This document shows, piece by piece, positions 8,420 to 12,114 of a stretch of 64,000 bases of DNA. Source of the stretch: Microbacteriaceae bacterium MWH-Ta3 (GTDB lineage Bacteria; Actinomycetota; Actinomycetes; Actinomycetales; Microbacteriaceae); contig QBKD01000001.1 of the NCBI GenBank assembly GCA_003053925.1, positions 1,178,001-1,242,000 on the forward strand, written 5' to 3'. The translations under genes were made by a program, and so were the position numbers. Under the pieces are notes generated by a model. That model saw nothing but the letters and a program-made list of their open reading frames with translations, was not told the origin of the DNA and made no database searches. Position 1 is the stretch's first letter; each line of letters starts with the position of its first letter.

Positions 8420-9457
8420 TCAGTCCACAGTGGGCAGTGGCAGAAATTCGGCAGCATCAATGCCGAGCGCCGCATTCAATGACACCGCTTGCGCATTCAA
8501 CACATCGAGGTTATCGAGCATGACATTGAATTCGTCTACGAGCGTGTTGTAGCGCGTGCGTTGCGCCTCGATTGCCGTTTGGCGCGCCGTGAGCGCGTCG
8601 CGGGCCGCGACAAATGCCGAACGCGACGTGAATCCGCCCGGCGTGTTGGATTTCTCATTGAATGCGTCAATATCGGCATCCAGCTTCGCGCGATCCTTCG
8701 TGAACTGTGCAAGAACGGCCGTCAGGTTAGTTTCCGCCGCTTCAATTTCGGCCACGAGCTCGGCGATTTCGGTCGTAATGCTGTCAAAAATCCGTGCAGC
8801 ATTTGCCGCCAGAACAACCGCGCGCGAACGGTCATCGAAATATCGTGCGTAGACGGCCTCGAGCTCCTCGGGCAATGCCGACACCTCGGTTCCCAGCAGG
8901 GCAAAGAGCTCGGCGGTTCGCGTCGCGGCCTTGAGATCACCATAGGCCGCGAGCCTCGTCGTTATCTGATCGGTGGGCAGTGAGCGATAGGCCTCGTCCA
9001 CCAGCCGACCCACGCGGTCCTGTTCCGCCGAGTCAAGGCGCGCCCACACCGCGTGCAGCATTTCGTGTGCGGCGACGACGGGCTCGAGTGTGGTCAGCTG
9101 GTCGTCGGTGATATCCAGCAGGTGAATGGTGTCAGCTGATGGGTCGTAGCACCCCAGCACGGCGATACCCGATTCTTTGATGGGGCACGATTCGTCGAAA
9201 GTCTCGGGTGAATGCAAGACAGGTTTCGTGGCATACAGATAAAACCGACCGGCAGACGACATTCCCGCATCGACTGCATAGCCGTCCAGCGTCGCGGTCG
9301 GAATAGATTTCCCCACAACCAACCAGTCGCGCACCGCGCCTCGGTTGGCAACGGCGAAGCCCGCGAGGCCCAACACTGCTATCTGGGTCCCCAAAGCCAG
9401 CGCGGCAATGGCCACACCGACGCTGCGCCCCAGACCGGGCACCAGGAACTTTTTCAC
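8420..9457 (-). CDS. membrane-anchored HExxH protein with coiled coil
   Basis: Unrecognised 345-residue protein. Residues about 13-37 form one hydrophobic segment, so the rest probably faces outside. A zinc-protease-like motif HEMLH sits at residues 131-135 inside VVAAHEMLHAVW, followed by an acidic stretch that could give a third ligand. Residues about 215-320 are charged and alanine-rich with coiled-coil character. Cys91 and Cys103 could form a disulfide. The GTG start lies 16 bases downstream of the duplicated stop at 9474-9476. It could therefore be co-transcribed with the ATP-grasp gene, or with the FAD oxidoreductase gene before the cassette was inserted. Peptidase activity is inferred from the motif only. 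Confidence 0.75.
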   Translation of the reverse strand: MKKFLVPGLGRSVGVAIAALALGTQIAVLGLAGFAVANRGAVRDWLVVGKSIPTATLDGYAVDAGMSSAGRFYLYATKPVLHSPETFDESCPIKESGIAVLGCYDPSADTIHLLDITDDQLTTLEPVVAAHEMLHAVWARLDSAEQDRVGRLVDEAYRSLPTDQITTRLAAYGDLKAATRTAELFALLGTEVSALPEELEAVYARYFDDRSRAVVLAANAARIFDSITTEIAELVAEIEAAETNLTAVLAQFTKDRAKLDADIDAFNEKSNTPGGFTSRSAFVAARDALTARQTAIEAQRTRYNTLVDEFNVMLDNLDVLNAQAVSLNAALGIDAAEFLPLPTVD

Positions 9458-9472
9458 TGCTTCAGGTTAACT

Positions 9473-9496
9473 GCTAGTGCCCCGTGAGTGGCGCAA
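9473..9496. repeat. direct repeat, left copy (24 bp)
   Basis: A 24-base sequence (plus strand, beginning GCTAGTGCCCC and ending GTGGCGCAA) that occurs again without mismatch at 10758-10781. Read on the minus strand it encodes the last residues APLTGH and the stop codon of the ATP-grasp gene. Confidence 0.95.
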
Positions 9497-10460
9497 CGGT
9501 GGTTGACGGACTCAATACCGCGCCCCAAAATGAATTTAACAACAAGTCGTCTGTGTCCAGCCAACCAAATTGCCCGTTGGGATTGACCTCCAAAAACCAC
9601 AGTCCGTCGTCATCAAGGATGAAGTCCAAACGTCCGAAATGCAGACCAGCTAGCCGCATGAACTTTTCAATACGAGGCGTTTCAAGCGCTGTCTGAGCTG
9701 ACTCATATCGGCGCCATAGGGACTGATCGTCCGTATTGATTTCAACGCGCCAATCGGGCGAAGATTCAGATCTATTGAAGCTGCAAATGTAAAAATAAAG
9801 TTTGCCGTCAACGTAAACACATGTCACATCTTGACCACTAAGTCGAGGGGACTGCTGAAACCAAGGGAACACGGGATTGAGGTCCTGTGGTGCGACAACC
9901 GACGTGTACCAAATTGTGCCGTCAGCCAGCTGGCTTTCTTCCAGTGGTTTGACGACTACCGTGCTTTCGTTGACGCCCTTGGTCGTGTTGACGACTAATC
10001 GCGACTCCGGAATGCGTAAGCCAGCATCAATCGCGAGCTTCAATTGAAAGAGCTTGGGCAGTCGAATTTCGGCCCAGGGGTCGACAAGTTTGAGGAGTGA
10101 CTTTTGTGCGGCCCAGGCGCAGATGTGTCGGAAGATGCCGCGGAGTTGCCCGTGTAAGACGGGTGCTTCCGCGGCATCGCCGGCAGCGATGCTCTGCAAT
10201 GTTGGCTTTCGTTCAAGAACGAAGGGTCGATCGCGGGAATATATTGACCGACCTGTAGGGTCAGTGATCTGAAAATCGTTCGGTCCTACCGAAATTTCGT
10301 ATTCATCCCAAAGGTCGAAGTTGAAACGGAACAGATTTGTTCCGAACTTGGCAGAAGTTTCAGCCATTCGATCGGCAGTACCATCGCGAGCTGATGTCAA
10401 CACCAGCAGAGACTGTCTTTCGAAAATGTTAATCCCAGCGCGAATCTGTGGGCCGTCCAT
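9474..10460 (-). CDS. ATP-grasp ligase of graspetide (RiPP) type
   Basis: Protein of about 328 residues resembling ATP-grasp RiPP maturases, which join side chains of a precursor peptide through ester or amide bonds. The N-terminal part begins with a strand-turn LLVLTSARDGTADRM, typical of the pre-ATP-grasp domain. The ATP-grasp part shows VVVKPLEE (Lys171), the Arg-x-Asp pair of GRLDF, and a metal-binding tail FLEVNPNGQ (Glu291, Asn293). The start is uncertain: ATG 10460 lacks a ribosome site and lies inside the precursor gene, while TTG 10469 and GTG 10403 are alternatives. GC is visibly lower than in neighbours. The last residues APLTGH duplicate the end of the adjacent FAD oxidoreductase. 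Confidence 0.85.
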   Translation of the reverse strand: MDGPQIRAGINIFERQSLLVLTSARDGTADRMAETSAKFGTNLFRFNFDLWDEYEISVGPNDFQITDPTGRSIYSRDRPFVLERKPTLQSIAAGDAAEAPVLHGQLRGIFRHICAWAAQKSLLKLVDPWAEIRLPKLFQLKLAIDAGLRIPESRLVVNTTKGVNESTVVVKPLEESQLADGTIWYTSVVAPQDLNPVFPWFQQSPRLSGQDVTCVYVDGKLYFYICSFNRSESSPDWRVEINTDDQSLWRRYESAQTALETPRIEKFMRLAGLHFGRLDFILDDDGLWFLEVNPNGQFGWLDTDDLLLNSFWGAVLSPSTTVAPLTGH

Positions 10461-10584
10461 TGCCGTCAAAAGTTTGCTTCGTCAATTCCGAGCGAAAATC
10501 GCCGGTCTGAGTCATGTGATCGTACTTTACGGGTGCCGCTGATTTAATTGGTGGTACTGCGCTAATGGTCGTAACGTTCACCAT
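10429..10584 (-). CDS. candidate graspetide precursor peptide (51 aa)
   Basis: Short gene directly upstream of, and overlapping, the ATP-grasp gene. The leader-like half contains PVKYDHMTQTGDF. The C-terminal half has Thr35, Lys36, Thr38, Asp40, Thr46, Asp47, Ser48 and Asp51 around a turn-like GNGRP, and ends WD. Hydroxyl/amine donors ahead of acidic acceptors are what ATP-grasp ligases of omega-ester peptides use. An AGAGG ribosome site at 10593-10597 sits eight bases before the ATG. Small Thr/Asp-tailed peptides next to such ligases are known in actinobacteria, usually with a methyltransferase; none is present here. The core and cross-links are inferred. Confidence 0.75.
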   Translation of the reverse strand: MVNVTTISAVPPIKSAAPVKYDHMTQTGDFRSELTKQTFDGNGRPTDSRWD

Positions 10585-10687
10585 TTTGTTTGCCTCTGCT
10601 TTCATCAATGGATTCGAAAAATTTCTTTTTCAGTTCGTCGTCGGCATCATCTTCAAAATCGACGCCTTCTATTGGTTGTGTATCCAC
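10562..10687 (-). CDS. acidic 41-residue peptide, first gene of graspetide cassette
   Basis: Unrecognised small gene with a GTG start. The product is strongly charged: an acidic run DFEDDADDE, then LKKKFFESIDESRG, then a polar tail ending YDH. It has no signal peptide or membrane segment. An in-frame stop lies just upstream (10697-10699), so it cannot be longer. The GTG is six bases after a TAGCGT hexamer, matching the leaderless pattern of this genome and explaining the missing ribosome site. Its last 23 bases overlap the precursor gene, suggesting coupling. It could be an accessory or immunity peptide or a second substrate; nothing in the sequence decides. Confidence 0.55.
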   Translation of the reverse strand: MDTQPIEGVDFEDDADDELKKKFFESIDESRGKQNGERYDH

Positions 10688-10693
10688 AACATC

Positions 10694-10723
10694 ACGCTAT
10701 AACGGGGGGGGGGGCAATGTCAA
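10694..10723 (-). promoter_or_regulatory. promoter of graspetide cassette with poly-C spacer
   Basis: Minus strand: TTGACA at 10723-10718, then an 18-base spacer containing eleven consecutive cytosines, then TAGCGT at 10699-10694, then six bases to the GTG start. The alternative -10 TATAGC would give a 16-base spacer. Slippage of the C tract would change the -35/-10 distance and hence promoter strength. Confidence 0.65.
10704..10714. repeat. homopolymer of 11 G (plus strand)
   Basis: Eleven consecutive G on the plus strand, the longest mononucleotide run I noticed in the window. It lies wholly within the spacer of the cassette promoter and not in any coding frame I support. Confidence 0.95.
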
Positions 10724-10757
10724 GCCATAACGCGATAAATGCGCAAATATTTTTGAA

Positions 10758-10781
10758 GCTAGTGCCCCGTGAGTGGCGCAA
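10758..10781. repeat. direct repeat, right copy (24 bp)
   Basis: Perfect copy of 9473-9496. On the minus strand it forms the final codons (APLTGH) and stop of the FAD oxidoreductase gene. The two copies bracket the ATP-grasp cassette, about 1.29 kb from copy to copy. Confidence 0.95.
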
Positions 10782-12114
10782 GCAGCTTCGCGATGATCGA
10801 CGGCCGGCCTGTCGCGGCTTCCTCGGCATCCGCCGCGGTCATCCCCACGAGGCCCGCATTCGCTCCGATAAATCGCAGGGGCTCGAATTCCCAGTCGGGG
10901 GACCGATGGCCCACCCAGGGAAGCGTCGTCAAGTGCGAGTCGGTACCCGTGATCAGGTCGGCCAGGGTGCGCCCCGCGAGGTTCGTCGTCGTCAGGCCAT
11001 CGCCCACGTATCCGCCCGCGCTGCCGATTCCGGTCGCCGGATCGAGTGCCACATGCGCGTGCCAGTCCCGCGGCACACCCAGCGGTCCGCCCCATCGATG
11101 GGTGATATCCAGTTTTCCGGCCTGCGGGAACATCTCGGACAGTGTGCGTTCCAGGTGGCCGAACACGGTGTCGCTGCGGTCGTATTCGGGCTTGATGGTT
11201 GACCCCAGGTGATACCTCGCCCCACGCCCACCGAAGGCGAAACGGTTGTCGGCGGTGCGCTGACCATAAATAATGAGGTTGCGGCCATCGCTAAACGTAT
11301 GACCATGCTGTAGGCCGATATCGTCCCAGACAGAATCGGGCAGAGGCGCAGTGGCAATCATCAGCGAATACAGCGGCAGGATGCGGCGGTGCGTTTGCTT
11401 AATCGATGCGCCATAGCCTTCGGTCGCATTGATGATGTACTTCGCGGTGACTGCGCCACGCGCCGTTGTCACGCGGCCCGAAACCCAGGACAGCACCTCG
11501 GTGTTGTCGTAAATTGTCGCACCACGCGCCTCGATCACCCGGGCAAGGCCCTGCACCAACTTGGCGGGGTGAACGCGCGCGCAATCGTGGGTGAAGGTTG
11601 CGCCACGGGCATTCGAGGCGCGAACATGGTCGCCCTCGACCCACTCCAGGTGGTCAATCCCCAGCGCCTGGGCCTCGGCGACCTCGGCTCGGAGCATTTT
11701 TTCCTGCAACGCGGTGCGGGCATAAATCAGGGTTCCAACGCGTGCAAAATCGCAGTCGATTCCCTCGGCTTCGACAACGCGACCAATCTCGCCGATCGAT
11801 TCGACCATGGCGTCGCGAAGGCCGCGCGCCCGGTCAACTCCGTAGCGCTCGATCAGTGATGCGGTCGACTGCGGGAAGAGGGCACTCGCCCAGCCGCCGT
11901 TTCGACCCGAGGCACCAAAGCCCACGGTGTGCTTCTCGAGCAACGCGACACGCAACGAGGGGTCGCGTTTCAGCAGATAGTACGCGGTCCAGATACCCGT
12001 AAGGCCGGCGCCCACGATAGCGACATCCACCACAGTGTCGCCATCAAGCGCCGGCCTCGGGCTAACCGATACCGGAACCGTGTCGTTCCATAACGAGACG
12101 GTCGGCCTGCTCAT
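10759..12114 (-). CDS. FAD-dependent amine/amino-acid oxidoreductase (PuuB-like)
   Basis: DAO-fold flavoprotein of 451 residues. The FAD-binding Rossmann motif is VAIVGAGLTGIWTAYYLL near residue 31. The family stretches GFGASGRNGGW and, near the C-terminus, GSAGGYVGDGLTTTNLAGRTLADL are present. It resembles gamma-glutamylputrescine oxidase and glycine oxidase relatives. The gene abuts the aminotransferase gene (start codon directly after its stop), so a role in polyamine or amino-acid catabolism is likely. The exact substrate is not known. Its last 22 bases belong to the 24-bp repeat shared with the ATP-grasp gene. Confidence 0.85.
   Translation of the reverse strand: MSRPTVSLWNDTVPVSVSPRPALDGDTVVDVAIVGAGLTGIWTAYYLLKRDPSLRVALLEKHTVGFGASGRNGGWASALFPQSTASLIERYGVDRARGLRDAMVESIGEIGRVVEAEGIDCDFARVGTLIYARTALQEKMLRAEVAEAQALGIDHLEWVEGDHVRASNARGATFTHDCARVHPAKLVQGLARVIEARGATIYDNTEVLSWVSGRVTTARGAVTAKYIINATEGYGASIKQTHRRILPLYSLMIATAPLPDSVWDDIGLQHGHTFSDGRNLIIYGQRTADNRFAFGGRGARYHLGSTIKPEYDRSDTVFGHLERTLSEMFPQAGKLDITHRWGGPLGVPRDWHAHVALDPATGIGSAGGYVGDGLTTTNLAGRTLADLITGTDSHLTTLPWVGHRSPDWEFEPLRFIGANAGLVGMTAADAEEAATGRPSIIAKLLAPLTGH

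Follow-up and report, generated by a model that had tools for sequence, protein, structure and literature searches.

The window analysed here, a 64-kb stretch of DNA from a small, streamlined actinobacterium, in all probability carries a horizontally acquired graspetide (RiPP) cassette. Its precursor peptide would dock through a leader and receive about two C-terminal ester rings, and the cassette would have entered a DAO-family gene at its 3' end, with a 24-bp duplication. We consider it very likely that the gene pair forms a graspetide operon belonging to an uncurated branch. This reading is carried by the family and fold of the enzyme, by a precursor gene that is linked to it and conserved with it, by candidate ring residues that are likewise conserved, and by an insertion with empty sites in relatives. 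The graspetide assignment had been made in the original prediction, and is supported overall since both the placement of the ligase and the conservation of the precursor hold.

Organization of the locus

Checking of open reading frames and their translations gave three frames of 41, 51 and 328 codons on the minus strand, each overlapping the next, as the original prediction had described (with about 328 codons for the longest). These frames and the genes that bound them on either side are as follows.

8420-9457: uncharacterised gene
9474-10460, minus strand: graspetide synthetase (ATP-grasp macrocyclase), 328 aa from an ATG start; 331 codons from TTG at 10469
10429-10584, minus strand: graspetide precursor gene, 51 aa, ATG start
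10562-10687, minus strand: acidic frame, 41 codons, GTG start
10759-12114, minus strand: DAO-family (FAD-dependent oxidoreductase) gene

The AGAGG proposed as the ribosome site of the 51-residue peptide is located 8 nt before its ATG. The start of the synthetase overlaps the end of the precursor by 32 nt, its ATG at 10460 lying within the end of the 51-codon frame, and this arrangement fits translational coupling. No dedicated protease or transporter was found beside the window ligase, a C39 peptidase was not found across the genome, and in those clade loci that were searched with Pfam no common accessory gene was detected beside the ligase. The minimal layout had been regarded as unusual. This does not hold, as the clade described below typically has it, though its SAR11 member (L001:6941-8629) carries an ABC transporter directly downstream, beginning 8 nt after the ligase. 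The layout is also not new in itself because groups consisting of a synthetase and a precursor only have already been reported (PMC13097080).

The original prediction counted two overlapping tiny genes. Both frames exist and the 51-aa one is supported, but a counterpart of the 41-codon frame was sought in all fetched loci and none was found; we thus rejected it as a conserved component of the system. In the likely transcript this acidic frame comes first, and 23 nt of it overlap the start of the precursor. Such a position could befit either another precursor or a partner protein needed by the synthetase, and partner-dependent synthetases such as rosaritide MirC exist (PMC13097080). Either role is nevertheless improbable for a peptide that has no counterpart in any fetched relative, no leader motif and no Ser/Thr-rich tail. 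Possibly the frame serves translational coupling, as a leaderless frame placed upstream.

Family and fold of the synthetase

In NCBIfam, each of the four models for RiPP ATP-grasp enzymes matches the ligase, the best being TIGR04187 (2.5e-18), and the RimK and D-Ala ligase models give only chance-level scores. The ligase stays far below every curated subfamily cut-off, with 66.3 bits versus 350 for TIGR04187 (GRASP_SAV_5884), and 60.1 and 33.2 bits versus 425 and 475 for the microviridin equivalogs TIGR04185 and TIGR04184 (MvdC/MvdD). The members of the clade alignment (11 of 11) behave in the same manner with NCBIfam. A Pfam search of the ligase gave no match. When the clade profile was compared with solved structures, AMdnB, MdnB, CdnC, MdnC and PruB (an MvdD-like ligase) were retrieved with E values of 8e-28 to 3e-17. 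The AlphaFold2 model of the ligase has a mean pLDDT of 72 and a pTM of 0.73, most of the central region (159-208) being poor and of low confidence. Searched with Foldseek, this model returned solved graspetide macrocyclases at ranks 1 to 31, including leader or precursor complexes, with RimK and synapsin at lower ranks. Lys174, Asp282, Glu294 and Asn296 are invariant across the clade.

A scan of species genomes yielded 17 loci. A maximum-likelihood tree was built with the window ligase, its relatives, and actinobacterial and other RiPP-type ligases. The window falls in a 12-row clade (support 100/100) apart from the sampled actinobacterial ligases. Sequence and predicted fold identify the ligase as an ATP-grasp macrocyclase of the graspetide type: profiles, tree, model and fold search agree on the type, and the ATP-grasp RiPP maturase named in the original prediction is where the NCBIfam profiles, the tree and Foldseek all place it. 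A grouping with small-metabolite ATP-grasp enzymes, which would have contradicted that prediction, did not occur, the ligase grouping with RiPP macrocyclases. It is extremely unlikely that we are dealing with a RimK-like or small-metabolite ATP-grasp enzyme that adds amino acids to a protein or metabolite, next to incidental small frames. RimK and synapsin do share the ATP-grasp fold and appear lower in the fold search, but the RimK model scores 10.7 bits against a cut-off of 143.4, the top 31 structural matches are all graspetide macrocyclases, and a motif-bearing small peptide precedes the ligase gene in every relative with upstream DNA.

Among known systems, the actinobacterial synthetases of TIGR04187 are of the same enzyme type and give the best curated match of both the ligase and its clade. 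A Streptomyces-type SAV_5884 affiliation, as suggested by this match, is ruled out by the cut-off and by the separate position in the tree. The microviridin macrocyclases MdnB/MdnC and AMdnB and the chryseoviridin enzyme CdnC share the fold and catalytic elements of the window ligase. However, identity to them is about 20%, neither a second ligase nor an acetyltransferase is present, and the core pattern differs. In microviridin-type systems Thr/Ser residues act as donors and Asp residues as acceptors close to the C-terminus of the precursor, as predicted for the window peptide, but the PFFARFL leader of microviridin precursors is absent from it.

The precursor peptide

The 51-aa peptide (MVNVTTISAVPPIKSAAPVKYDHMTQTGDFRSELTKQTFDGNGRPTDSRWD) has a leader with Y21-D-H-M-T-Q26 and a core of approximately residues 32-51; Thr35, Thr38, Asp40, Asp47, Asp51 and GNGRP are present as had been listed. 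A small frame of 64-84 aa lies immediately before the ligase in the relatives with DNA upstream (11/11), so the 51-residue frame is conserved beside the ligase, a point that the original prediction had proposed to check. The leader motif Y[DN]xxxQ occurs in 12 of 12 upstream peptides, the window's included. Outside the clade it was found upstream of the ligase at only 1 of 29 loci in the same scan, a count that may be too low as the scan depends on a recognised ligase motif. We infer that the motif serves in binding the synthetase.

The window tail QTFDGNGRPTDSRWD aligns with the tail QTFDSNGKPSDARSDNTD of the peptide from a Myxococcales MAG (L002), with a BLASTP E value of 1e-6 for the pair and none of 5000 shuffles as good, and with the tail QTYGYSGYPNDSRGDNWD of the SAR11 peptide (L001), for which 2 of 5000 shuffles were as good. 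These three loci, and only these, have the common pattern [ST]xQT[FY]x3GxPxD[SA]RxD, in which Ser/Thr35, Thr38, Asp47 and Asp51 are kept. Because the pattern is common to the three peptides, Thr35 and Thr38 are the likely donors, and Asp47 and Asp51 the likely acceptors, of the predicted rings. The Thr/Asp tail proposed originally is conserved at these four positions (Thr35 being Ser in relatives), whereas Asp40, which is Gly in L001, is ruled out as a conserved ring residue. The alphaproteobacterial tails differ (e.g. NCNTATIQT...DQVHDCGFD), yet contain Thr and Asp. The cores therefore diverge while the leader motif stays, as described for other graspetide branches (PMC8939145). It is this conservation, in the shuffle tests and in the 12 of 12 leader motifs, and not the length of the open reading frame, that places the 51-aa frame beyond chance. 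Thus, the ligase is accompanied by an adjacent conserved precursor with a leader motif and with conserved Ser/Thr donors and Asp acceptors.

Distribution of the clade

Besides the window, the 12-row clade comprises L001, from a genome labelled Pelagibacter ubique (SAR11), L002, seven alphaproteobacterial loci, one from Akkermansia (L010) and a phage contig (L067). The window and L001 are joined at 100/97. As these sister taxa belong to different phyla, the tree indicates horizontal transfer. The window ligase was sought in 98 relatives, 14 of them of the same genus and some with incomplete genomes, and was absent. Among 397 genomes of the window's phylum we otherwise found only distant ligases and no further close member, and in the SAR11 order the system is present in 1 of 397 genomes, again with no further close member. 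The system is therefore rare and scattered. Searches of plasmid and phage records gave distant ligases only, and no plasmid matched the precursor. Since relatives of the pair occur in bacteria that are unrelated to one another and also in a single phage fragment, it resembles a small mobile production unit for a cross-linked peptide, whose general type is known but whose branch is uncurated.

On the IMG/VR phage contig (L067:382-1895), a related precursor and synthetase have a head-tail adaptor gene on one side and, on the other, head genes that appear to lack their first part. That this cassette interrupts a portal gene was considered, but has no supporting PHROG match. The L001 set is flanked by genes that we take by eye to be lipoamide dehydrogenase-like on one side and helicase-like (priA-type) on the other. 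In two alphaproteobacterial genomes the ligase is joined, at a distance of about 5 kb and on the other strand, by another, only distantly related ATP-grasp ligase of RiPP type (G495:C465:13940-14488 and G499:C26:10195-10749).

Insertion site and probable foreign origin

Evidence for an insertion, which is new relative to the original prediction, comes from a direct repeat of 24 bp, identical in both copies, on either side of the cassette.

10758-10781, minus strand: repeat copy 1, 3' end of the DAO-family gene (TTGCGCCACTCACGGGGCACTAGC)
9497-10757, minus strand: inserted cassette between the repeats, 49.9% GC
9473-9496, minus strand: repeat copy 2, supplying the 3' end of the ligase gene and its stop; host sequence resumes beyond, as in relatives

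The repeat spans the last bases and the stop codon of both genes, which therefore end in the same sequence: the final residues of the ligase, APLTGH, and its stop codon derive from the duplicated repeat and match those of the DAO gene. No third copy was found in the 1.56-Mb genome with up to 3 mismatches allowed. Eleven same-genus loci present an empty site, in which the next gene starts about 20 nt after the DAO gene. Their junctions read like ...CTTGCGCCACTCACGGGGCACTAGCCAATAGCCTGAA..., a layout that corresponds to the outer flanks of the window meeting at one repeat copy. The GC content of the insert (49.9%) is 4.6 standard deviations lower than the mean of equal windows (60.4%, sd 2.3), and its GC3 is below that of the neighbouring genes. 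The cassette is very likely a foreign insert. The sequences show an insertion with target duplication, recent enough that the two copies still match exactly, although among congeners these bases have already changed.

The length of the repeat and its position at a gene 3' end resemble integrase attachment sites. Direct repeats and an empty site in relatives are thus both present, as for an integrative element, but an integrase or transposase of its own is not: the 1.26-kb insert has space for the listed frames only, and no integrase or integrase relic was found in it. No comparable repeats were found flanking the cassettes of eight relatives. If site-specific excision is active, the excised circle would have the ligase end joined via one 24-bp copy to TTCAAAAATATTTGCGC.

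An insertion at this site could also have replaced the natural C-terminus of the ligase, leaving a pair that is no longer functional and persists as a decaying passenger. The C-terminus indeed runs into the duplicated repeat, the genome has no C39 protease and no transporter beside the cassette, and relatives lack the cassette. We judge this very improbable, as both frames are intact and every clade-invariant residue of the ligase is retained. Moreover, C-terminal tails of different length occur among the relatives, and any loss may thus have been small.

Candidate promoter and C run

10696-10723, minus strand: candidate promoter, TTGACA (10723-10718), 16-nt spacer, TATAGC (10701-10696), proposed from resemblance to the consensus only

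TATAGC ends 8 nt upstream of the GTG that starts the 41-codon frame; a general promoter scan did not list this pair of elements. Within the spacer lies a run of 11 C (10704-10714, minus strand), the sole homopolymer of at least 8 in the 64-kb window and the sole C or G run of at least 10 in the genome, though for a genome of that size a base-composition model would itself permit a small number of them. In Neisseria and some other bacteria, runs of this type within the spacer of a promoter bring about phase variation, and by analogy the run here is a possible phase switch, a hypothesis drawn from one assembled sequence. A more elaborate proposal is doubtful: a mobile, self-contained and phase-variable two-gene cassette, in which the C run would switch the promoter spacer length, and which would move among distant planktonic bacteria and phages via site-specific insertion at gene 3' ends, borrowing the stop codon of the host gene.

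Proposed product and significance

In the proposed mechanism, recombination within the 3' end of the DAO-family gene would have brought in the cassette and duplicated 24 bp. The 51-aa precursor would be made and its Y[DN]xxxQ leader would dock on the adjacent synthetase. This enzyme would use ATP to phosphorylate side-chain carboxylates, most likely those of Asp47 and Asp51, and the hydroxyls of Thr38 and Thr35 would attack the activated carboxylates. About two ester rings are predicted at the peptide C-terminus because the tail pattern provides two hydroxyl groups as donors and two carboxylates as acceptors; this prediction from the sequence extends to the linkages and their number, but not to which donor joins which acceptor. 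Host enzymes would later remove the leader and export the peptide, which could be used in competition or signalling or as a protease inhibitor.

The novelty of the branch may be limited mainly by possible membership among the 43 graspetide groups of PMC13097080. RODEO groups 27, 28 and 35 of that study have a two-gene layout of synthetase and precursor like that of the window, and one of them may already include the window clade. The system adds an uncurated branch to the graspetides, one that has a leader motif of its own and a compact core with two predicted rings. Its host is a small, streamlined actinobacterium, and streamlined aquatic bacteria are seldom credited with such products. The clean empty sites in congeners make the gain of the cassette, and possibly its function, directly testable, and a minimal two-gene system would be handy for the study or engineering of peptide macrocyclization.
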